A stretch of DNA of 16,771 nucleotides from an uncultured beta proteobacterium. Its GTDB lineage: Bacteria > Pseudomonadota > Gammaproteobacteria > Burkholderiales > Burkholderiaceae_C. The first letter of the stretch is position 1, and each line of letters opens with the position of its first letter. The DNA lies in assembly GCA_903870955.1 (NCBI GenBank), contig CAIQEX010000713.1:1-16771 (forward strand), given 5' to 3'. The notes below the pieces were generated by a model. It worked only from the letters and a program-made list of their open reading frames with translations, was not told the origin of the DNA and did no database searches. The translations under genes and the position numbers were made by a program. Below, in pieces: positions 364 to 12,639 of this stretch.

Positions 364-1476
364 ATGCGCATCGGACTACCCAAGGAAATCAAGAACCACG
401 AATACCGTGTCGGACTCACCCCCGCGAGCGTGCGCGAGCTGACCTCTCACGGCCATTCGGTGCTGGTGCAAACCGGCGCTGGTGCCGACATCGGCTTGAG
501 CGACGAGCAGTACCTTGCTGCCGGTGCCACGCTGGCAGCCAATGCTGCCGAAGTGTTCGCCGCGTCGGAGATGATCGTCAAGGTCAAGGAACCCCAGCCG
601 CAGGAATGCGCCATGCTGCGCCCCGGCCAGATTCTCTACACCTACCTGCACCTGGCTCCGGACCCCGAGCAGACCGAGGCGCTCATCAAGTCGGGTGCCA
701 TCTGCATCGCCTACGAAACCATCACCGGCCCCGGCGGCGGTCTGCCCCTGCTGGCACCGATGAGCGAAGTGGCCGGCCGCATGTCGGTGCAAGCCGGTGC
801 TGCGCACCTGGAAAAATCCAAAGGCGGTATGGGCGTGTTGCTGGGCGGCGTGCCTGGCGTGCACGCAGCGCACTGCGTCATTCTGGGTGCCGGTGTGGTC
901 GGTACCCACGCCTTGCAAATGGCTGTGGGCATGGGCGCGCGGGTCACGGTGCTGGACAAGAGCATTGAACGCCTGCGCCAACTCGACCTGATTTTTGGCA
1001 ACCGCATCAACACGGTTTATTCCAATGTGCAAAGTGTGGAAGAAGCCGTGTTGGATGCCGACCTCGTCATCGGCGGCGTGCTGATTCCCGGTGCCGCTGC
1101 GCCCAAATTGGTCACGCGCGCCATGATCAGCAAAATGAAAAAGGGTGCGGTACTGGTGGACGTGGCGATTGACCAGGGCGGCTGCTTCGAGACCTCGCAT
1201 GCCACCACCCATGCCGATCCGACCTTTGTGGTGGATGGTGTGATTCACTACTGCGTGGCGAACATGCCCGGTGCTGTGGCCCGCACCTCAACCTTCGCGC
1301 TGAACAACGCCACCATCGGCCACGCCGTCACGCTGGCCAACAAGGGCTGGAAGCAGGCCCTCAAAGACAACGTGCATTTGAAGAATGGCCTGAATGTGGC
1401 CGAAGGCAAGGTCACCTACGAGGCCGTCGCTCTGGCCCTGGGCAAGACCTACGTGCCGGCAGACTCGCTGCTGTAA
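364..1476 (+). CDS. ald: Alanine dehydrogenase
   Basis: NAD-dependent L-alanine dehydrogenase (L-alanine + NAD+ + H2O to pyruvate + ammonium + NADH), cytoplasmic. At 370 residues it has the normal family length. It opens with the family N-terminus MRIGLPKEIKNHEYRVGLTP. Catalytic and substrate residues known from the Mycobacterium tuberculosis enzyme are at the same positions: Arg15, Lys75 (in VKEP), His96 (in YLHLAPD) and Asp270 (in DVAIDQGG). The NAD-binding Rossmann glycine motif GAGVVG is at residues 175-180. The start is supported by AGGAG at 352-356, seven bases before the ATG. It appears monocistronic. Its last 28 bp overlap, tail to tail, the convergent XdhC-type gene. It has no obvious metabolic tie to the CO locus; alanine catabolism and reductive amination are its usual roles. 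Confidence 0.97.
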   Translation: MRIGLPKEIKNHEYRVGLTPASVRELTSHGHSVLVQTGAGADIGLSDEQYLAAGATLAANAAEVFAASEMIVKVKEPQPQECAMLRPGQILYTYLHLAPDPEQTEALIKSGAICIAYETITGPGGGLPLLAPMSEVAGRMSVQAGAAHLEKSKGGMGVLLGGVPGVHAAHCVILGAGVVGTHALQMAVGMGARVTVLDKSIERLRQLDLIFGNRINTVYSNVQSVEEAVLDADLVIGGVLIPGAAAPKLVTRAMISKMKKGAVLVDVAIDQGGCFETSHATTHADPTFVVDGVIHYCVANMPGAVARTSTFALNNATIGHAVTLANKGWKQALKDNVHLKNGLNVAEGKVTYEAVALALGKTYVPADSLL

Positions 1477-2567
1477 GACTGCCCGATGGAAGCCACGCCG
1501 ATGCCGCAGGCCAGCGGGTCGGCATGGTTTTCCTGAATCGCAAGTTCGTCTTTGGCCGGTCCCACCTGAAGGTCTTTGGGCAGTTTGACGCCGTTTTTTA
1601 CCGCCAGCAACTCGGCCATGATGCTGACCGCGATTTCCGGGGGCGTCTTGCTGCCGATGTAGATGCCAATGGGTCCGCGCAATTTGGCCAACTCGGCGGG
1701 ACTGACGCCAAAGTGTTCAATCATGCGGGCACTGCGCGCGAGGTTGTTGCGCCGTGACCCAATCGCGCCGATGTAAAAGGCCTCACTTTGAACGGCATCC
1801 AGCAAGGCCAGATCATCCAGCTTGGGATCATGCGTCAGCGCCACCACGGCGCTGCGGCGGTCCGGTTTGAACGCGGCCATGGCGTCGTCCGGCATGTCCT
1901 GCACCACCTGCACACCTGGCACCGACCAACTCGTTCGGTACTCCTCGCGCGGGTCACACACGGTGACGGCAAAGCCGTTGAACTGCGCCATGGTGGCCAG
2001 GTACTCGCTCATCTGGCCGGCGCCAATGATGAGCAGGCGATATTCCGGCCCGAACACATTGCTGAGTGTGCTGGCAGTCAACTTCAAGTCCGAGGGCTGG
2101 TTGCAAAGTCGTACCGTTGCGGCCCCCGTGTCGAGCGCCACGCTGCGTTCGACCAGCAAGCCTTGGTCCAACCAGGCCAGCAAGGTATCCAGTGTCTCCA
2201 CCGCCGGGTCAAACTCCAGCAGCAGTTCCAGGGTGCCACCGCAGGGCAGGCCAAAGCGGTGCGCTTCATCGGCGCTTACGCCATAGGTCAGCAGGCGCGG
2301 CGGTCCCACGGGGAGTTGTTGCGGCTCGCCCGGAGCCACCGCATGCGGCTGTGTATAGGCCTGGGTAAAGCGGTGGATCAGGTCATCTTCGATGCAGCCC
2401 CCGGAGACCGAGCCGACGACCGAGCCGTCTGCACACAGGGCCATGATGGAGCCCACCGGACGCGGCGATGAGCCCCAGGTCCGGACCACGGTCGCCAGCA
2501 GTGCACGCCGTGACCCGGTACGCCAAAATCGCAAGGTTCGCAGCACCATTCCATCCAGATTTTCCAT
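1449..2567 (-). CDS. CoxI/XdhC-family molybdenum-hydroxylase maturation factor
   Basis: The protein has 372 residues and the two-domain layout of the XdhC/CoxI family. The N-terminal XdhC domain contains GSVSGGCIEDD (residues 52-62) and FGLPCGGT (105-112), with the two conserved cysteines Cys58 and Cys109. The C-terminal Rossmann domain contains IGAGQMSEYLA (181-191), YIGAIGSRRN (265-274) and a GPIGIYIGSKTPPEIA segment (298-313). Family members bind Mo cofactor and help sulfurate it and insert it into xanthine dehydrogenase or CO dehydrogenase. Here it is the only family member near a cox operon that has neither coxF nor coxI, so it probably fills that role (inference). It lies 35 bp downstream of the minus-strand membrane-protein gene, so the two are probably co-transcribed. 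GGAAG on the minus strand (about 2576-2580) precedes the ATG. Its last codons run 28 bp into the ald coding end. Confidence 0.9.
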   Translation of the reverse strand: MENLDGMVLRTLRFWRTGSRRALLATVVRTWGSSPRPVGSIMALCADGSVVGSVSGGCIEDDLIHRFTQAYTQPHAVAPGEPQQLPVGPPRLLTYGVSADEAHRFGLPCGGTLELLLEFDPAVETLDTLLAWLDQGLLVERSVALDTGAATVRLCNQPSDLKLTASTLSNVFGPEYRLLIIGAGQMSEYLATMAQFNGFAVTVCDPREEYRTSWSVPGVQVVQDMPDDAMAAFKPDRRSAVVALTHDPKLDDLALLDAVQSEAFYIGAIGSRRNNLARSARMIEHFGVSPAELAKLRGPIGIYIGSKTPPEIAVSIMAELLAVKNGVKLPKDLQVGPAKDELAIQENHADPLACGIGVASIGQSYSSESAGT

Positions 2568-2602: not shown

Positions 2603-3316
2603 TCAACGACGGGTGTCGTTGGCACTGGCGAGCAGTGCCCGATTGCGAAACGCAAAGTACTGCCGGTAGAGCGCGACGCTACCCACCATGCCCCAGGTCA
2701 TGCCGACGAACATGCCACCCAGCATGCCTGTCAGGGACGCTGCGCCCAGCATGATTTGCAACCGCACCATCCAGACCGCGCCCAGAGTCATGCCCAGTAG
2801 CATCCAGCCCGAACACAGCAGGTTTTGCGTTAAAACCGAACACAGATAGCGTCCGCAATGGGAGCGCAGCATGCGCAGGCTCGGGATGGCCAGCAAGCCC
2901 CCCAGGAGCATGCCGATGTGCATGCCTGGCAAGTAACGCAGGTGCAGTGAAAAACTCTCAGACAAGCGGAGTGTGGAGGCTTGCTGGCACAGGCTACCCA
3001 ATTGCGCCGGGCCCGCGTTCAGCCAGTCCGCCAACAGGCCCAGCAGCATGCCACCAAAACCCAGCGACAGCATGACATGGGGGGGCGAAAGACCGGCGCT
3101 CTGGGGCCTGACCCAGCTTAACGCCGCACAACCAGCGGCCACCGCCAGCAGGCACAGCAGGATGACCGGCCAGACGGCATCCAGCGTCACGGGAAGTGAC
3201 TGCCGGTCGGCAAACCAAAGGGCCATGGCCACCGTAGCAATCAGCAGCGCGGGCGTGACGGACGCCGACCCAATGCCGCGTGCCAGCCAATGCGCCTGTG
3301 TGTTGAGGATGGTCAC
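2603..3316 (-). CDS. Polytopic, methionine-rich membrane protein of unknown function
   Basis: I do not recognise a family for these 237 residues. By eye there are about six hydrophobic segments, near residues 15-36, 45-66, 79-98, 128-146, 160-182 and 184-210, with a short basic C-terminus (RNRALLASANDTRR). Methionine is frequent and clustered in Gly-Met patterns such as GMHIGMLLGG and GMLGGMFVGMTWGMV; these could be glycine-zipper helix packing or thioether metal sites. Translation appears to start at GTG (3314-3316), but no clear ribosome binding site is visible, so a later start is possible. The gene is the first of a minus-strand pair with the XdhC-type gene and is divergent from rcoM. Some characterised cox clusters carry extra membrane proteins (CoxB, C, H, K), and this may be a functional counterpart, but no homology is claimed. 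Confidence 0.7.
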   Translation of the reverse strand: MTILNTQAHWLARGIGSASVTPALLIATVAMALWFADRQSLPVTLDAVWPVILLCLLAVAAGCAALSWVRPQSAGLSPPHVMLSLGFGGMLLGLLADWLNAGPAQLGSLCQQASTLRLSESFSLHLRYLPGMHIGMLLGGLLAIPSLRMLRSHCGRYLCSVLTQNLLCSGWMLLGMTLGAVWMVRLQIMLGAASLTGMLGGMFVGMTWGMVGSVALYRQYFAFRNRALLASANDTRR

Positions 3317-3544
3317 CTGTTTGTGCTCGTTGTGTTGGGCTGCATGCGTGCAAGGGTTAACCCGATGTGTCGCACGCGCAGTGAATTTCTGACCGTTTTA
3401 AGGGATCGCACTGTAAGCGTATTTGGCAATTTCTGCAGCCCGATGAACGAATTGCTTACAGCCTGCATGAGTAACCGTGCACCCGCATGAGCGATGCGAC
3501 GGAATCCGCTGTAATTCACTTTCCAATACATAAAGAGACAAGAC
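3317..3544. promoter_or_regulatory. Divergent control region between membrane-protein gene and rcoM
   Basis: These 228 bp separate two divergent genes and should hold both promoters. Visible elements are: a perfect 10-bp palindrome GGGTTAACCC (3354-3363); the octamer AATTTCTG twice in direct orientation (3384-3391 and 3428-3435, offset exactly 44 bp); TTnnnG hexamers at 3386, 3397, 3430 and 3456, the first two 11 bp apart; and a perfect 8-bp inverted repeat, CTGTAAGC (3411-3418) with GCTTACAG (3454-3461). LytTR-type regulators generally bind direct repeats spaced about one helical turn, and TTnnnG is the motif I recall for RcoM sites, so part of this may be an RcoM site. I could not fix convincing -35/-10 pairs. 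Confidence 0.45.
3354..3363. repeat. Perfect palindrome GGGTTAACCC
   Basis: A 10-bp perfect palindrome lies 37 bp upstream of the minus-strand membrane gene start, in the divergent control region. It is a plausible operator half-site pair for a dimeric regulator, but no specific factor can be assigned. Confidence 0.4.
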
Positions 3545-4354
3545 ATGACTTCCTGTAAGCACGCCGTTGGGGCGGGCCCATCCGGCACCACCCATCCGAA
3601 CTCCTGGCTTTATTTGCTGGAGCGTTTTGATGTGGGTGTGGTGCATCTGGATGTGCAACTGCACGTCACCGGAATGAACGATTTCGCGCGGCGCAGCCTG
3701 CCGGTGCAGGACAAAATGCCGTTTGGAAAAATAGTCACCGATTTCCATCCGGAAGCGGCCAGAGCCAAGGTCAAGTTTCTGCTGGGTCAGGCCGAATGCC
3801 CGGTGAACAACGCCCCACCCATGGCCATGATGATCAGCATTCCCGAGCGTATGTTGCTGATCAAGGTCTCCAAAATAGCCGACATGCAGGGACAGACCAC
3901 GGGATATACGCTGGTGTTCTATGACATTACCGAGGTCGTCAGCAAGGATGCCGACAGCAGCGCAGCTGCCGGAAGCGCAGAACCCAAGGCCAAACGCCAG
4001 CTGCGCAAGATTCCCACCATCAAGCAAAACCGCGTGCTGCTGGTGGATGTATCGCACGTTTCCTTCATCCGCTCCGAAGGGCATTACACCTGGGTGCACA
4101 ACGTGCAGGGTGGGCAGTTCTGCAATCTGACCATTGGCGATCTGGAAACCCGCCTCGATCCGAATCTGTTTTTGCGGGTGCACCGCAGCTACATCGTGAA
4201 CCTGAGCCAGGTCGATGAAATCGTGCGTGACGACGGCCGTATCACGCTGCGCATGATGGGCTCCACGCCGGTCGAGATACCGGTATCGCGTGCCAGCGCG
4301 GCGCGCCTGATGGAGCACCTGGGACTGAGCGACGCCACCCTGGCCAGGGCTTAG
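3545..4354 (+). CDS. rcoM: RcoM: CO-sensing heme PAS-LytTR transcriptional regulator
   Basis: This 269-residue single-component regulator has an N-terminal PAS sensor (about residues 20-135) and a C-terminal LytTR DNA-binding domain (about 157-262, with FIRSEGHYTWVH and LRVHRSYIVNL). In B. xenovorans RcoM the heme iron ligands are His74, Cys94 (ferric state) and Met104 (ferrous, displaced by CO). The equivalents here are His68 (in DFHPE), Cys85 (AECPV) and Met95 (AMMISIPER), in the same order and local context. CO binding to heme is known to switch RcoM to an activator of coxM-type promoters. The ATG has a purine-rich AAAGAGACA upstream. It is encoded immediately before coxM on the same strand, 196 bp away, as expected for the local activator of the CO dehydrogenase operon; it may also act on the divergent pair. 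The alignment to RcoM is from memory; the domain call is secure. Confidence 0.9.
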   Translation: MTSCKHAVGAGPSGTTHPNSWLYLLERFDVGVVHLDVQLHVTGMNDFARRSLPVQDKMPFGKIVTDFHPEAARAKVKFLLGQAECPVNNAPPMAMMISIPERMLLIKVSKIADMQGQTTGYTLVFYDITEVVSKDADSSAAAGSAEPKAKRQLRKIPTIKQNRVLLVDVSHVSFIRSEGHYTWVHNVQGGQFCNLTIGDLETRLDPNLFLRVHRSYIVNLSQVDEIVRDDGRITLRMMGSTPVEIPVSRASAARLMEHLGLSDATLARA

Positions 4355-4404
4355 TTACCCGAAGGGCAGAGTGCCAAGTTGTTCAGAGTGGCCCCCGACT
4401 GCAT

Positions 4405-4418
4405 TGTGCAAACGCACA
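4405..4418. repeat. Inverted repeat TGTGC-N4-GCACA upstream of coxM
   Basis: A 5-bp perfect inverted repeat with a 4-bp AAAC centre lies about 50 bp after the rcoM stop codon. It superficially resembles a Crp/Fnr-type operator, but the spacer is 4 rather than 6 bp and the half site is TGTGC rather than TGTGA. It could be a regulator site or a small stem in the rcoM 3' UTR. Confidence 0.35.
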
Positions 4419-4513
4419 TATTCGGCTCGTGCGCCCTGGCTGCCGTTCATGCGCGACAAAAGCCGTTGATTGGATAGCCTCCCTTTTTTGAAAGTCGCCC
4501 GATAAAGTGGGCG

Positions 4514-4531
4514 GCTCTGCATTGACAGAGC
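4514..4531 (+). promoter_or_regulatory. Leader hairpin directly before the coxM ribosome binding site
   Basis: GCTCTG-CATTGA-CAGAGC forms a perfect 6-bp stem with a 6-nt loop, ending 6-7 nt before the AAAAGGAGA Shine-Dalgarno. In the mRNA it would sit just upstream of the ribosome landing site without covering it, so it could stabilise the 5' end or keep the site open. The TTGACA string inside it (4522-4527) is unlikely to be a -35 element because no -10 fits before the start codon. Confidence 0.5.
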
Positions 4532-4550
4532 ACCCATAAAAGGAGACAAC

Positions 4551-5414
4551 GTGATCCCACCCGCATTCGATTACCACGCACCCCAGACGGTGGCAGAAGC
4601 CATTGGCTTGCTGGTGTCTCTGGGCGATGACGCCAAGCTGCTGGCCGGCGGCCACAGCCTGCTGCCCATGATGAAGCTGCGCTTTGCTGCGCCCGGCACG
4701 CTCATCGACATCAACCGCATTCCCGAGCTACGCGGCATCAGCGAAGCCGGCGGCATGATTCGGATTGGCGCCATGACCAGCGAGAACGAACTTATTGACT
4801 CGGCTCTGCTGAAAGAAAAACTGCCGCTGTTGGGTGAAGCCGCCAAACTGATTGCCGACCCGCAGGTGCGCAACCGCGGCACCATCGGCGGTGACATTGC
4901 GCATGGCGACCCCGGCAACGACCACCCCGCCATTGCCATGGCGCTGGACGCCACCTTTGTGTTGCAAGGGCCGCGCGGCGAGCGCCAGGTCAAAGCGGTG
5001 GACTTCTTCCATGGCACCTACATGACCGCACTGGCCGAGGACGAGATCCTCACCGCCATTCTGATTGCACCCTTTGCTCCCGGCACCGGCAGCGCCTACC
5101 AAAAGCTCAAGCGCAAGACCGGCGACTGGGCCACCGCCGGCGCGGCTGTGGTGTTGCGCATGAGCGGTGGTGTGGTGACCCATGCCAGCATTGGCCTGAC
5201 CAATGTTGCACCCACGGCGCTGCGCGCCCGGGACGCCGAAGCGGCACTAATTGGTCAGCCCATTAACGCCGCCTCGCTGGAGGCTGCAGCGCAAGCGGTG
5301 CGCGCCATCTGCGATCCGGCAGAGGACCTTCGCGGTGACGCCGAATACAAAACTGCCATGGCTGCCGAAATGACCAAACGTGCCATCTCTGCAGCTGCCG
5401 CACGTTGCGCCTGA
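4551..5414 (+). CDS. coxM: CO dehydrogenase medium (FAD) subunit CoxM
   Basis: The 287-residue flavoprotein subunit of aerobic Mo-Cu CO dehydrogenase takes electrons from the CoxS iron-sulfur clusters and passes them on via FAD. The two FAD-pyrophosphate motifs of the Oligotropha enzyme are present: AGGHS at residues 32-36 and TIGGD at 111-115. The FAD_binding_5 domain spans about 1-175 and the CO_deh_flav_C domain about 180-285. Translation starts at GTG (4551), four bases after the strong Shine-Dalgarno AAAAGGAGA; this start gives the family N-terminus IPPAFDYHAP. It is the first gene of the operon, and the M-S-L order is that of form I cox clusters. CoxS follows after 32 bp. Confidence 0.96.
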   Translation: MIPPAFDYHAPQTVAEAIGLLVSLGDDAKLLAGGHSLLPMMKLRFAAPGTLIDINRIPELRGISEAGGMIRIGAMTSENELIDSALLKEKLPLLGEAAKLIADPQVRNRGTIGGDIAHGDPGNDHPAIAMALDATFVLQGPRGERQVKAVDFFHGTYMTALAEDEILTAILIAPFAPGTGSAYQKLKRKTGDWATAGAAVVLRMSGGVVTHASIGLTNVAPTALRARDAEAALIGQPINAASLEAAAQAVRAICDPAEDLRGDAEYKTAMAAEMTKRAISAAAARCA

Positions 5415-5446: not shown

Positions 5447-5938
5447 ATGAGCAAAAAAATGGTCGCCATGACTCTCAATGGCAAGAGCGTGGAAGAGGCG
5501 GTGGAGCCGCGCACGCTGCTGATTCACTTTCTGCGCGAAAAGATGTCCCTGACGGGTGCCCACATTGGCTGCGAGACCAGCCATTGCGGCGCCTGTACCG
5601 TGGACATTGACGGCCAGTCCGTCAAGTCCTGCACCCACCTCACGGTGCAGTGCGAAGGCAGCGACATCAAGACCGTCGAGGGCCTGGCCAACGCCGGTGC
5701 CCTGCACGCTATTCAGGACGCGTTCTACAAGGAACACGGTTTGCAGTGCGGCTTCTGCACCCCTGGCATGCTGATGCGTGCCTACCGCTTTCTGCAGGAC
5801 AACCCCAACCCGACAGCCGAAGAAGTGCGCCACGGCATGTCCGGCAACCTGTGCCGTTGTACCGGCTACCAGAACATCATCAAGGCGGTGCTGCATGCTG
5901 CCAAGACCATCCAACAACAAAGCGCAGTGGCCGCGTAA
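5447..5938 (+). CDS. coxS: CO dehydrogenase small ([2Fe-2S]) subunit CoxS
   Basis: The 163-residue iron-sulfur subunit carries electrons from the Mo-Cu site to FAD. The plant-ferredoxin-type N-terminal domain has cysteines 42, 47, 50 and 62 ([16 protein letters not shown], then KSC), which hold the distal [2Fe-2S] cluster. The four-helix domain has Cys101 and Cys104 (CGFCTPGM) and Cys136 and Cys138 (LCRCTGY), which hold the proximal cluster. All eight ligands are present and the length matches the roughly 166 residues of the Oligotropha protein. The ATG at 5447 follows a purine-rich CCGAGACAC. It lies 32 bp after coxM and 30 bp before coxL in the same operon. Confidence 0.97.
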
Positions 5939-5968: not shown

Positions 5969-8371
<2,403 letters not shown>

Positions 8372-8417: not shown

Positions 8418-8439
8418 CTTGTATTTTCTAAGGTTTGAT

Positions 8440-9090
8440 ATGGAAGTTGTTCTCGACAAGACTTACCCGGTCGCCTCCGGTGTGGACGCGGCCTGGCTGG
8501 TGCTGGCCAATATGCACGAGTTGGCCACCTGCATGCCCGGTGCGCAGATTACCGAGGACATTGATGCCACGCACTTCAAGGGCGCGGTCAAGGTCAAGGT
8601 CGGCCCGGCCGTGGCGGCCTTTGCCGGCACCATCGAAATTCTGACTCTGGATGCGGCCACCCGCACCCTCAAGATGATGGGCAAGGGTGCCGACAAGGGC
8701 GGCTCGTCGGCCTCCATGGAACTCACCGCCAACCTGGTTGAAGCCGAAGGCGGCATGAGCACCCTGGTGGGCCACGCGGAGGTGATCGTCAACGGCAAGT
8801 TCGCCCAGTTTGGCGGTCGCATGATGACCTCGGTATCGGACATGATCCTGTTGCAGTTCGCCGATGTGTTCTCGCAAAAGGCGGCCGTGCAGCAGGCGGC
8901 CATGGCACCTGCTGAAGTGGCACCGGTGAATGCCGCAACCACCACCGCCAGCGCGACTGATGCACCGGCCCCCGTTGCCGCGCAGGCGGCACCGGTGGCT
9001 CCGATTGTGGCCAAGGAATTCAATGCGCTGGCCTTTGCCTGGCTGATGGTCAAGAACTTCTTTTCCGGCCTGTTTGGCCGCAAAGCCTGA
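8440..9090 (+). CDS. coxG: CoxG, SRPBCC-domain membrane-recruitment subunit
   Basis: The 216 residues start at ATG 8440, preceded by TAAGG (8429-8433). A longer in-frame reading from 8164 would overlap coxL and cross the intercistronic hairpin, so I rejected it. Residues 1-145 form a CoxG/SRPBCC lipid-pocket domain (MPGA near residues 32-35, KVKVGP and FAGTIEI, GGRMM). An Ala/Pro/Thr-rich linker follows (about 150-190). The C-terminal helix, with hydrophobic and aromatic residues and Lys/Arg (about 193-214, LAFAWLMVKNFFSGLFGRK), is a probable membrane anchor. CoxG proteins have been reported to recruit CO dehydrogenase to the membrane and to bind quinone, linking CO oxidation to the respiratory chain. 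The position between coxL and coxD is consistent with this. Confidence 0.93.
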   Translation: MEVVLDKTYPVASGVDAAWLVLANMHELATCMPGAQITEDIDATHFKGAVKVKVGPAVAAFAGTIEILTLDAATRTLKMMGKGADKGGSSASMELTANLVEAEGGMSTLVGHAEVIVNGKFAQFGGRMMTSVSDMILLQFADVFSQKAAVQQAAMAPAEVAPVNAATTTASATDAPAPVAAQAAPVAPIVAKEFNALAFAWLMVKNFFSGLFGRKA

Positions 9091-9108: not shown

Positions 9109-10038
9109 ATGGCTGAACTGCAAGTGCCATCCCCTGAAGGTCTGCGCGAGCAACTCTTCAAGGCCGGCTACATCGCCGATGAAGACCTCGCCAGCCTGGT
9201 CTGGATGGGTCTGGCGCTGGAGCGCCCGCTGCTGCTCGAAGGCGAGGCCGGTGTCGGCAAGACGGCGATTGCGTCTGCTTGTGCACGGGCTCTGAACCGT
9301 CCTCTGCTGCGCCTGCAGTGCTACGAAGGACTGGATCTGGCGCAGTCCGTTTACGAGTGGAACTACAGCCGCCAGTTGCTGGAAATCCGCCTGGCCGAGG
9401 CGGGTCAGGGCGACCGCGCCGCCTTGCGCGACAACCTGTTCTCCGAGGCCTTCCTGCTGGAGCGCCCGCTTTTGCAGGCGATACGCTGCGCCGAGCCCTG
9501 CGTGCTGTTGATCGACGAGATCGACCGAGCCGACGAAGCCTTCGAGGCTTTTCTGTTGGAGATGCTGTCCGAGTACCAGGTCACTGTGCCCGAAATCGGC
9601 ACCCTCAAAGCGCTCAGCAAACCTTTGGTGGTGCTCACCAGCAATGGCACGCGCGATCTGTCGGATGCCCTGCGCCGCCGCTGCCTGTTCCATTACGTGG
9701 ACTTCCCGACACTGGCGCGTGAGACGCAAATTGTGCGCACCCTGGTGCCCGAAGCCGCGGGACGCCTGGTCGAAGAGGCGGTCGCCTTTGTCCAGCGACT
9801 GCGCAAGCAGGACCTGGAGAAAACGCCGGGCGTCGCCGAAACGCTGGACTGGGTGCGGGTGCTGTTCAAGCTCGGGCATGGCGAATTGCCAGTGGATCCG
9901 CAGTTGCTGGTGCCTTCGCTCTCGGCCCTGCTGAAGACCCGCACCGACCGCTGGCTGGTGACTTCCGACACCGTCGCCAAACTGCTCGACGGGCCACGCA
10001 TAGCGCAGGACGTGGGCGTGGCCGGGGCCATGAAATAA
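9109..10038 (+). CDS. coxD: CoxD, MoxR-type AAA+ ATPase for active-site maturation
   Basis: The 309 residues contain a MoxR-family AAA+ module. Walker A is GEAGVGKT (residues 45-52), Walker B is CVLLIDEID (131-139), sensor 1 is in VVLTSNG (174-180), and an arginine-rich DALRRRCLFHYVDFP segment (187-200) follows. In Oligotropha, CoxD is the membrane-associated chaperone-like ATPase required to sulfurate the Mo and insert Cu in apo-CO dehydrogenase. MoxR ATPases act with VWA-domain partners, and coxE is directly downstream, 12 bp away. The gene starts 18 bp after coxG; the ribosome binding site is weak (GTGAGA), so coupling to coxG translation is likely. Confidence 0.95.
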   Translation: MAELQVPSPEGLREQLFKAGYIADEDLASLVWMGLALERPLLLEGEAGVGKTAIASACARALNRPLLRLQCYEGLDLAQSVYEWNYSRQLLEIRLAEAGQGDRAALRDNLFSEAFLLERPLLQAIRCAEPCVLLIDEIDRADEAFEAFLLEMLSEYQVTVPEIGTLKALSKPLVVLTSNGTRDLSDALRRRCLFHYVDFPTLARETQIVRTLVPEAAGRLVEEAVAFVQRLRKQDLEKTPGVAETLDWVRVLFKLGHGELPVDPQLLVPSLSALLKTRTDRWLVTSDTVAKLLDGPRIAQDVGVAGAMK

Positions 10039-10050
10039 GGCGGCGTCAGC

Positions 10051-11235
10051 GTGGCCATTCTGGAGCAAATCAGCGTCCCGGCAGCCTCCGATCCGCGCCA
10101 GCAACTCGGTGAATTCGCCCACTATCTGCGCGGCCACGGCTTTGCGCTGGGCTATGCCGAGGTCGAGTTGATGGCCCGCGCCGCCGCTGCCCTGCCCCTG
10201 GTGCAATGGCCCCGTCTGCAAGCCCTGTGGCGTGGCATTGCCTCGGGCAGCCAGACGCAGTGGACACGCTACCCGGATTTGCATCAGAGCTTCTGGTTCC
10301 CGCACAAGCAGCGTATGGCCCGGCGCAGTTCGGGCCTGACGCAAAAGTCACGCGCGCTGCCCGAGCTGGTGCAGCAAATGCACAAGGACATGGCCAACAC
10401 ACCGCCGGGGGCCGCCAAACCCTCCCTCGGTGTGGCCGATCAGGCCGGCTCCGGTGACGTGGATGCCGCGGATGCCGCCAAGAAAGCCCAGGGCGGTGCC
10501 AGCCGCACGCCACCGCAAGACACGCGCGATTTTGCCGACTGGCTGCCCGGTGACATGGACCGCTTCGAGCCGCTGGTGGAGGCCTTCAAACGTCGGTTGC
10601 GCGCCAAGCTGATGCGCCGTGTACAGGATCACCCGCAGCGGGGTGCCATCCATTTGCGGCGCTCGCTGCGCCAGGCGCTATCCACCGGCGGCGAGTTGGT
10701 GCAGCTGCACCATGTGCGACGCAAGCGCCGCCTGCCTCGGGTCAGTGTGCTGGTGGATGTGAGCCGCTCCATGGAAACCCATGCCCAGTTTTTTCTGCGC
10801 CTGGGCCGTGCCCTGGTTGAAGTCATGGACGCACGGGCCTTTGTGTTTCACACCCGCCTGGCCGAGGTCACGCCCTTGATGCGCAAGCGCAGCAAGCGCA
10901 TGCAGGAAAAAGTCAACGCGGTCAGCTTCGGCTTTGGTGGCGGCACGCGTATTGCGCATTGCCTGGGTCAGGCATTGGATGTGCACCTGGGCCGCGCGCT
11001 GAAAAGTGGCGACATTTTTATGGTCCTGAGCGATGGCTACGACACCGATGCGCCGGAAGATCTGTGCGCGGTGCTGGCCCGCGTCAAGGCGCGTGGTGCC
11101 CGCATCTGCTGGTTGCACCCGACCGTGGAACGGCCACAATCCGAGGCTATGCGTCTGGCGGCACCGCACGTGACGCACTTCATGCCGGTGCACAACCTGG
11201 CCAGTCTGTCACGCCTGCCCGAACTGCTGGCGTAG
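10051..11235 (+). CDS. coxE: CoxE, VWA-domain maturation factor
   Basis: The 394-residue CoxE-like protein has a C-terminal von Willebrand A domain from about residue 228. The MIDAS metal site is visible as Asp236-x-Ser238-x-Ser240 (DVSRSMET), Thr299 in GGGTRI, and an aspartate in LSDGYDTD. The N-terminal half is basic with an Ala/Gly/Pro-rich low-complexity stretch (about 110-160). CoxE is the conserved partner of the CoxD ATPase in cox clusters and is needed for maturation of the Cu-Mo centre. The start is GTG at 10051, with TAAGG overlapping the coxD stop codon (10036-10040) as Shine-Dalgarno; the spacing is rather long at about 10 nt. Confidence 0.93.
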   Translation: MAILEQISVPAASDPRQQLGEFAHYLRGHGFALGYAEVELMARAAAALPLVQWPRLQALWRGIASGSQTQWTRYPDLHQSFWFPHKQRMARRSSGLTQKSRALPELVQQMHKDMANTPPGAAKPSLGVADQAGSGDVDAADAAKKAQGGASRTPPQDTRDFADWLPGDMDRFEPLVEAFKRRLRAKLMRRVQDHPQRGAIHLRRSLRQALSTGGELVQLHHVRRKRRLPRVSVLVDVSRSMETHAQFFLRLGRALVEVMDARAFVFHTRLAEVTPLMRKRSKRMQEKVNAVSFGFGGGTRIAHCLGQALDVHLGRALKSGDIFMVLSDGYDTDAPEDLCAVLARVKARGARICWLHPTVERPQSEAMRLAAPHVTHFMPVHNLASLSRLPELLA

Positions 11236-11266: not shown

Positions 11267-11941
11267 ATGGGATGTCAGTTCAAACAAGGTGGTGGGTTGT
11301 ACACCCGCCTGCGCGTCGGTGCCGTGCTGCTGGCCGCTGGTGAGGGCCAGCGCATGGGCGGCGTGGCCAAGTCGCTCATCCGGCTGCAAGGCGTGCCGCT
11401 GATCAACCGACAACTGGTGGCCCTGAGCGGTGCCGGTATCGATGAAGTGGTGGTGGTCACTGGCCATGCGCGCGATGCGGTGGAGGCGGCCGTGTCCGGC
11501 TTTCCGGTGACGCTGGCGCACAACGAAAATTACAAGGACGGGCAGCAGGGCTCGGTGCGCGCCGGCCTCGACAAATTGGGTCCCAATTGCGATGCCGTGC
11601 TGATACTCCTGGCGGACCAGCCACTGATTGGAGCGGCCGACCTTACCGAACTGATTGCCGCCTTCAAAAAGCGTGGCCAGGGTCATGTGCTGGTGCCCAT
11701 GGTGGACGGGCAGCGCGGCAACCCCATCGTGCTGGACGATGTGGCACGTGCACAGATTCACGCCAGCGGCACCAACCTGGGCTGCCGCAACCTGATCGAG
11801 CGCAACCCCGAACTGGTGTGTGTGCATGAAACCGCCAACACCCGCTTTGTCACCGACCTGGACACCCCCGAGGATCTGGCCCGCCTGGCCGCGCGCACCG
11901 GCTGGCGGCTGGAGTTGCCGCAGGTCGAGACCGCGGCATGA
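11267..11941 (+). CDS. MocA/MobA-like molybdenum cofactor nucleotidyltransferase
   Basis: This 224-residue protein is a nucleotidyltransferase of the MobA/MocA fold. The nucleotide-binding signature LAAGEGQRMGGVAKSL is at residues 22-37 and the metal-binding LADQPL is at 115-120 (Asp117); RGNPIVL and a C-terminal FVTDLDTPEDL follow. MocA-type members transfer CMP from CTP to Mo-molybdopterin, making the molybdopterin cytosine dinucleotide that CO dehydrogenase uses. Given its place in the cox operon, MCD synthesis is the likely role, although a GMP-transferring MobA or a sugar nucleotidyltransferase cannot be excluded from motifs alone. The ATG at 11267 has TTGGAGA (11254-11260) upstream. About 16 residues precede the first strand, slightly longer than typical. 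Its stop overlaps the next start as ATGA. Confidence 0.88.
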   Translation: MGCQFKQGGGLYTRLRVGAVLLAAGEGQRMGGVAKSLIRLQGVPLINRQLVALSGAGIDEVVVVTGHARDAVEAAVSGFPVTLAHNENYKDGQQGSVRAGLDKLGPNCDAVLILLADQPLIGAADLTELIAAFKKRGQGHVLVPMVDGQRGNPIVLDDVARAQIHASGTNLGCRNLIERNPELVCVHETANTRFVTDLDTPEDLARLAARTGWRLELPQVETAA

Positions 11942-12639
11942 CGGCAACTGTGCCCGCCAGTCCCTTGCAGGCACACTGGCCTGTGCCTTTTGCCAGGCAC
12001 AGCTTTGCGCAGGCTGCCGAGGTCAACGAGGTGTTGGCCCGCGTCTTCACGGTGATGCGCGCCACCGACCCCGGCTACCGTCCCGGCAGCAGTTTTTACG
12101 CCAGCAGTGACGACCTGCTGGGGCGCGTGGACGTGCCGGAGTTTGCCGCCCTGATCCAGTTCATTGCCCAGGCGCTGCAGCAGACCGTGAAACAGGCCAA
12201 TGCCGGTGTCTGGCCGCAGGGCCGCCATGCACTGCAACTGGAGTTAACCGGGGTCTGGTTTCAGGTCCAGAACGGGGCAGCATTTCACGACATCCACAGC
12301 CACGGCAACTGCTCCTGGTCAGGCGTGTACTACGTGCAGATGGACCCACCGGAACAGCGCCAGGCACATGTGGAACTCGGTGCCCTTAACGGTGCCACGC
12401 GCTTTTACAGCCCGATGTTCCCGTTGCTGGGAGGCGCCTACATGGACATGGGCAATGCCTGGCTGCAGCAGGCCACGCTGGACGTGACGCCACAAGCCGG
12501 TGAACTGCTGCTGTTCCCGGCCTTGCTGGCGCACAAGGCCATGCCCTACAGCGGCACGAAGGACCGCATCGTGGTGTCCTTCAATGCGCAAATCCACGCC
12601 CCAGCAGGTGACAAGGTGTTTTCCTACGCTGCGGTGTAA
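11938..12639 (+). CDS. Putative 2OG-Fe(II) oxygenase, last gene of the cox operon
   Basis: The 233 residues resemble the small putative 2OG-Fe(II) oxygenase family (TIGR02466-like). Candidate iron ligands are in FHDIHSHGNCSWSGVYYVQ (His117, Asp118, His120 and His122), with a distal His199 in ALLAHKAMPYSG and Arg210 in KDRIVVSFN as the possible 2-oxoglutarate carboxylate anchor. These lie in double-stranded beta-helix-like strands (LELTGVWFQV; ELLLFPALLAH). The substrate is unknown. Its ATG overlaps the stop of the MocA-like gene (ATGA, 11938-11941), which indicates translational coupling and probably makes it the terminal gene of the cox transcript. It ends 21 bp from the convergent rhodanese gene. 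I know of no established role for such an enzyme in CO oxidation. Confidence 0.75.
   Translation: MTATVPASPLQAHWPVPFARHSFAQAAEVNEVLARVFTVMRATDPGYRPGSSFYASSDDLLGRVDVPEFAALIQFIAQALQQTVKQANAGVWPQGRHALQLELTGVWFQVQNGAAFHDIHSHGNCSWSGVYYVQMDPPEQRQAHVELGALNGATRFYSPMFPLLGGAYMDMGNAWLQQATLDVTPQAGELLLFPALLAHKAMPYSGTKDRIVVSFNAQIHAPAGDKVFSYAAV

Follow-up and report, generated by a model that had tools for sequence, protein, structure and literature searches.

The gene at positions 3,545–4,354 of the stretch of DNA analysed here (16,771 nucleotides, hereafter the window) encodes an orthologue of the CO sensor RcoM from a Comamonadaceae branch of the family, for which heme, CO and DNA binding are predicted. 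We propose that it forms a CO-activated switch, in which a heme-PAS RcoM would bind triplets of direct repeats spaced 20 bp apart and so activate both the cox operon and a divergent transcription unit; we put the probability of this reading at about 0.9. It builds on four features readable in the sequences: the residues in the heme ligand columns, the conservation of the repeats, the almost constant distance between these and a –10-like element, and the way in which the parts occur or are missing together. The occurrence of rcoM beside cox genes is not unusual, being already in print for Cupriavidus and Paraburkholderia in the available text of PMC11771112. What is new here is the operator map and a likely second target, the divergent membrane gene. 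The features are listed in Table 1.

Table 1. Annotated and predicted features of the window.
Feature	Position	Strand	Basis or remark
XdhC/CoxI/CoxF-like protein	1449..2567	–	Pfam; 35 bp after membrane gene
Unnamed membrane protein, 237 aa	2603..3316	–	no Pfam family; invariant Cys/His/Met
–10-like TACAGT of divergent unit	3410..3415	–	36 bp past start of third repeat
Second predicted RcoM operator: CTCATGC, CTCATGC, TTCGTTC	3445..3491	–	repeats 20 bp apart; faces divergent membrane gene
rcoM, 269-aa PAS-LytTR regulator	3545..4354	+	ORF from ATG; Pfam, alignment, AlphaFold model
PAS domain, residues 24–129	3614..3931	+	Pfam PAS_10; PAS folds in structure matches
His68 codon	3746..3748	+	column of RcoM-2 His74
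Cys85 codon	3797..3799	+	column of RcoM-2 Cys94
Met95 codon	3827..3829	+	column of RcoM-2 Met104; Met96 = column of RcoM-2 Met105
LytTR DNA-binding domain, residues 163–259	4031..4321	+	Pfam; structure matches
Predicted RcoM operator of coxM: CTCGTGC 4426, TTCATGC 4446, TTGATTG 4466	4426..4472	+	repeats 20 bp apart
–10-like TAAAGT	4503..4508	+	37 bp past start of third coxM repeat
coxM	4551..5414	+	Pfam
coxS	5447..5938	+	Pfam
coxL, form I	5969..8371	+	Pfam; TIGR02416; motif
coxG	8431..9090	+	Pfam
coxD-like AAA ATPase	9109..10038	+	Pfam; coxD name from position and relatives
coxE, VWA protein	10051..11235	+	Pfam
mocA-like nucleotidyltransferase	11267..11941	+	below curated cut-off of MocA model
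2OG-Fe(II) oxygenase-like protein	11938..12639	+	overlaps mocA stop; operon member by position only

The order of a PAS followed by a LytTR domain within one protein, which is the layout of RcoM, was found both by Pfam and in an AlphaFold model. The LytTR match is strong (E 2.7e-21), and the PAS_10 match lies near its threshold (E 1.8e-4; 22.6 bits against a cut-off of 22.1). The model, built with 32 sequences, has a mean pLDDT of 78.7; its best structure match is a solved LytTR domain, followed by other LytTR and PAS domains, among them the heme PAS domains of Aer2, DosP and FixL. Sequence searches of the PDB returned a LytTR domain and chance-like matches, and RcoM was not found among them. 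In a single comparison, the protein is 40% identical over 254 residues (E 1e-59) to the record ‘heme-containing CO-sensing transcriptional regulator rcoM 2 [Paraburkholderia xenovorans LB400]’ (P0151), which came from a search led by a Paraburkholderia aromaticivorans relative. The source genome is a 4.39 Mb draft (87% complete, 5.6% contaminated), in which the RcoM query gave no second match at E 0.001. Rfam had no match anywhere in the window.

An earlier note on this DNA had placed His68, Cys85 and Met95 at the ligand positions of RcoM and had named a pairwise alignment as the test that could refute it. The alignment bears the claim out, as all three residues fall in the ligand columns of LB400 RcoM-2. 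It also settles a doubt about which Met of the AMMIS stretch is concerned: the first of the pair, Met95, occupies the ligand column, since it falls on RcoM-2 Met104 and the column holds Met in 237 of 241 aligned proteins (among the matches listed). Among the same listed matches, the His68 column is His in 241/241 and the Cys85 column Cys in 232/241, with Met in 233/241 at the Met96 column and in 133/241 at the Met93 column. This alignment comprises P0001 and 240 listed matches (the best 120 of 1455 and the best 120 of 369), P0002 being the window's protein again. The ligand counts were taken from protein searches; of the two patterns used for contig scans, one, [AP]PP[ML]AMMI, favours relatives that keep the Met. 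Identical ligand columns occur in P0150, named from Burkholderia sp. Ch1-1 (none of the records obtained bore the name of LB400 RcoM-1). In one relative, P0109, Leu-Met stands where others have Met-Met; because of this replacement, and because the Met96 column is also strongly conserved, the ligand may have shifted by one residue in that protein. Three further proteins (P0204, P0207 and P0219) of the 241 aligned keep His with Cys and Met both gone, and their heme ligation, perhaps also their signal, should differ. An alphaproteobacterial RcoM beside cox, from Acidisoma cellulosilyticum (P0239, locus L046), has His and Met, and no Cys at the ferric column.

The functions of these residues would follow those in P. 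xenovorans RcoM. Met104 is reportedly the CO-replaceable ligand in a study of BxRcoM-1, and RcoM-2 is said to have a Cys-ligated heme with a redox-mediated ligand switch. In reduced RcoM, His and Met ligate the heme and CO takes the place of the Met, according to the available part of PMC9670170. By analogy, His68 would stay bound to the PAS heme, Met95 would be the second ligand of the ferrous heme and be displaced by CO, and Cys85 would probably ligate the ferric heme; redox tuning may likewise carry over to the window RcoM, in which Cys85 is present. Heme-binding PAS domains respond to a wide range of signals, oxygen sensors of the PAS type are among the structures that the model resembles, and the family may be non-uniform, with 9/241 relatives lacking Cys and three of these also lacking Met (among the matches listed). 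It is nevertheless very unlikely that this heme-PAS LytTR regulator responds to oxygen, NO or redox instead, with CO being incidental: the window protein keeps all three ligands, and the repeats described below precede CO dehydrogenase genes in 60/60 distinct co-directional sequences.

The claim that rcoM lies 196 bp upstream of a form I cox operon was confirmed. The gap spans 4,355–4,550 and is followed by coxM, S, L, G, D, E, mocA-like and 2OG-Fe(II) oxygenase-like genes; there is no coxF after coxE here. CoxL scores 1523 bits against the TIGR02416 cut-off of 991, and at residue 379 it carries AYRCSFR, a motif that we take to mark form I CO dehydrogenase and that matches the pattern AYxCSFR, with CoxM and CoxS as partners. 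The genome has a second CoxL-like gene (contig C658, locus L115), 39–41% identical, with the motif AYRGAGR, presumably form II-like; its cluster contains an XdhC of its own, 73% identical to that of the window.

The site of RcoM1 consists of three TTCNNGCA repeats with 12–13 bp spacers, as given in the available text of PMC11347149. In the window, triplet direct repeats are found near the CO genes as a sequence pattern. The first two repeats upstream of coxM resemble the published RcoM-1 repeat (2 and 1 mismatches of 6 to TTCNNGCA), and the third, a poor fit with 4 mismatches of 6, shares little with it beyond TT. A scan of the window's two intergenic regions alone for TTNNNGC gave scattered matches and no clear triplet, so both operators were recognised only through comparison with relatives; a sigma-70 promoter scan of 3,300–4,600 returned none at threshold.

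For this comparison, 84 loci were assembled (1 from a plasmid, 13 from relatives and 70 named, with some genomes present twice). In 70 of them coxM comes after rcoM in the same direction. Among the other 14, rcoM is divergent from cox in 11, no coxM was found in L048, and the available stretch ends soon after or within rcoM in L101 and L106. Including the window, 71 rcoM–coxM intergenic sequences were collected, 60 of them distinct. In 60/60 of these, two TTCGTGC-like heptamers stand 20 or 21 bp from one another and together deviate by no more than 2 mismatches; this count is not blind, the heptamer having been settled on once the sequences had been read. At most 1 mismatch was found in 58/60 and none in 48/60, and the corresponding means after dinucleotide shuffling (20 rounds) were 0.45, 0 and 0. 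The window's own pair, with 2 mismatches, is weaker than most. Because the heptamer was chosen post hoc, the likeness to the published RcoM-1 motif serves as independent, if partial, support. A third repeat at 20–21 bp, at most 2 mismatches from TTGATTG or TTCGTGC, occurs in 58/60 distinct sequences; it is absent in L014 and L015, whose RcoM is 50% identical. Three loci from two genomes (L003, L052 and L061) have an rcoM–coxM gap grown to 554–730 bp, with the triplet still about 124 bp from coxM. The enlarged gaps of L003 and L061 contain short repeats of the CATGCA type.

The position of the triplet relative to the putative promoter is nearly fixed: in 56/60 distinct sequences a –10-like TANANT begins 37 bp downstream of where the third repeat starts, and 1.3% of random anchors have TANANT at 36 or 37 bp. 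This geometry bears on whether RcoM activates or represses cox. CoxC of Afipia carboxidovorans, a membrane-bound MHYT-LytTR repressor with a copper-dependent sensor, likewise uses a LytTR domain and three direct repeats, and RcoM might by the same token repress cox until CO relieves the repression. The CoxC operator overlaps the –35 box, whereas the sites of RcoM1 and most LytTR activators lie upstream of it (PMC11347149, in its available text, for CoxC and RcoM1 alike). The window triplet, with 37 bp from the start of its third repeat to the –10-like element, is placed upstream of the expected –35, and the sensor domains of CoxC and RcoM are unrelated; we therefore consider repression highly improbable and favour activation by CO-bound RcoM. 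RcoM-1-like repeats upstream of coxM, here and in relatives, strengthen the link between RcoM and cox, and in this respect the CO-dependent control of cox predicted by the earlier note is supported.

A second triplet, on the other strand, faces the divergent membrane gene and fits TTCNNGCA with 2, 1 and 1 mismatches of 6. The pair pattern with at most 1 mismatch has three matches in the window, two at the divergent site and one at coxM; 200 shuffles gave a mean of 0.17 and never reached three. Among 51 distinct sequences (from 62) between the membrane gene and rcoM, a triplet on the minus strand with 5 or fewer mismatches of 21 was found in 50 (shuffle mean 0.2, largest 1) and one on the plus strand in none. 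With its start 54 bp ahead of the rcoM start codon, the triplet is near enough to affect rcoM transcription and could be read as rcoM autoregulation, with RcoM controlling cox alone and not the membrane gene. We regard this as unlikely. The triplet is oriented to the membrane gene, and on that side a –10-like element lies at 36–38 bp in 48/50 sequences (at 36 or 37 bp in 37/50). Furthermore, in 8/8 Ramlibacter loci that have rcoM and in which no membrane gene was found, any triplet within 252 bp of rcoM has at least 7 mismatches, which argues that the second operator belongs to the membrane gene rather than to rcoM. This comparison required at least 252 bp upstream of rcoM, and L092, with too little sequence, was left out; triplets with 4 mismatches occur 400–500 bp from rcoM in 5/8 of these loci, within a long divergent ORF. 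In six Ramlibacter loci (L049, L051, L054, L077, L078 and L087), the gene divergent from rcoM resembles one for a selenium-binding protein (methanethiol oxidase type).

Genomes with cox and without rcoM served as natural controls. A coxL match at E 1e-200 was obtained in 15 of 61 genomes, the window's own included, and 12 of those 15 have rcoM. The cox-upstream stretches scanned in the other three (G005, G016 and G059) hold no heptamer pair at 20–21 bp that stays within 2 mismatches, the best pairs having 4, 5 and 3 mismatches, respectively; in G059, where mocA precedes coxM, both the stretch upstream of mocA and that between mocA and coxM were scanned. In G005 and G016 (L111 and L112) the membrane gene and coxM are immediate divergent neighbours, and rcoM and both operators appear to have been lost together; the two junctions are alike and may represent one loss event, and G016 is 75% complete. 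A decaying cluster is suggested in Candidatus Paraburkholderia kirkii (L047, 2,276–6,811), where rcoM and coxG each match in two pieces and coxL only in part.

Within the window's own genome (4.39 Mb), YTCRTGC-N12-14-YTCRTGC occurs three times, two of the occurrences being the coxM and divergent promoters, and the reversed control occurs once. The third match, on contig C270, falls within a long opposite-strand ORF and was for this reason rejected as an operator. Across the 61 genomes the N12–14 pattern often reflects one similar N14 sequence recurring in many of them; there are 20 N13 matches, of which 11 adjoin rcoM.

The putative second target encodes several predicted transmembrane helices. 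No Pfam family matches the 237-residue protein well, none of the 120 relatives listed of at least 412 has a functional name, and a model of it (pLDDT 79.7) gave no match below E 0.2 to solved folds. In 25 aligned sequences, Cys63, 110, 154, 159 and 168, His80, 125 and 133 and at least 10 Met are invariant. A full-length copy of the gene is present in 14 of the 61 genomes, including all 12 with an RcoM at least 79% identical, and cox genes lie beside it in all 14 (in G010 and G019, coxM and coxS alone were seen). G002 contains a short piece of the protein (residues 191–227) and gave no coxL or rcoM match. Kinship with known proteins was also considered. For MHYT proteins and CoxC, no MHYT Pfam match was obtained in the window protein or in 25 family members, and hhalign against CoxC gave a probability of 0.1; a kinship with OmpW was tested and not found either.

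The invariant Cys, His and Met residues, the RcoM-type operator of its own and the position beside cox allow the membrane protein to be read as an accessory of CO dehydrogenase. The downstream XdhC/CoxF-like protein is 27% identical over 162 residues to the XdhC-family protein (CoxF) of the A. carboxidovorans cox cluster, and copper supply is assigned to CoxF by Pelzmann et al. in the available text of PMC4240915. On the grounds of the invariant residues, the enzyme cofactor and the neighbouring CoxF-like gene, we offer the doubtful suggestion that the membrane protein is CO-induced under RcoM control and handles copper for the Mo-S-Cu site together with its XdhC/CoxF-like partner; no direct fold or family match backing a copper role was found.

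Taken as a mechanism, CO binding to the PAS heme would lead the LytTR domain to bind the triplet repeats. From the triplet just upstream of the coxM core promoter, RcoM would activate coxMSLGDE and mocA, and from the second triplet the divergent unit of membrane protein and XdhC/CoxF-like gene. What we infer, rather than read from the sequences, is that the protein binds heme and CO, that it recognises the repeats, that it acts as an activator and not as a repressor, and how it behaves towards redox changes. The self-contained sense-and-use module predicted by the earlier note seems to comprise two divergent units rather than one operon. The locus adds a well-supported RcoM with likely operators in the Comamonadaceae, far from the laboratory-studied branch, and makes the DNA code of RcoM comparable across 40% protein identity. 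It also singles out a family of uncharacterised membrane proteins that the CO switch probably controls, and so opens to test a step that may be missing from the account of how CO dehydrogenase matures or is used.

Compared with known systems, the window resembles RcoM-1 and RcoM-2 of LB400 in its PAS-LytTR layout, its TTCNNGCA-like triplet and cox genes as target, and RcoM-2 also in the His/Cys/Met ligand columns. At 40% identity to RcoM-2, the window protein differs in lacking 8 residues ahead of the His and another 3 in the stretch from there to the Cys. In the 11 Burkholderia-type loci examined, the repeats are mostly 21 bp apart rather than 20, and rcoM is divergent from cox, whereas the window rcoM is on the same strand. 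When scored against TTCNNGCA, with no shuffle control, 10/11 of these loci have a triplet with at least 14 of 18 positions matching, the best mostly 21 bp apart. Every match listed faces the cox side, with none in L042, and the strict heptamer pair occurs on the cox side in 1/11 (L045). Paraburkholderia aromaticivorans (L002) has one triplet before an OmpW gene and another before coxM, and RcoM may therefore govern an envelope protein besides CO dehydrogenase in both branches, a different one in each.

The window shares an rcoM within a form I cox cluster with mocA with Cupriavidus ulmosensis CV2 and Paraburkholderia terrae COX, in which rcoM occurs with coxGDEF and mocA (PMC11771112, available text); it differs in that its XdhC/CoxF-like gene is located at the opposite side of the cluster, following the membrane gene. 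An rcoM has also been described in an anaerobic coo cluster (PMC4257681, available text). CoxC, finally, is comparable as a LytTR regulator of cox with three direct repeats, but the match to it covers the LytTR part alone (33.9% over residues 147–260).
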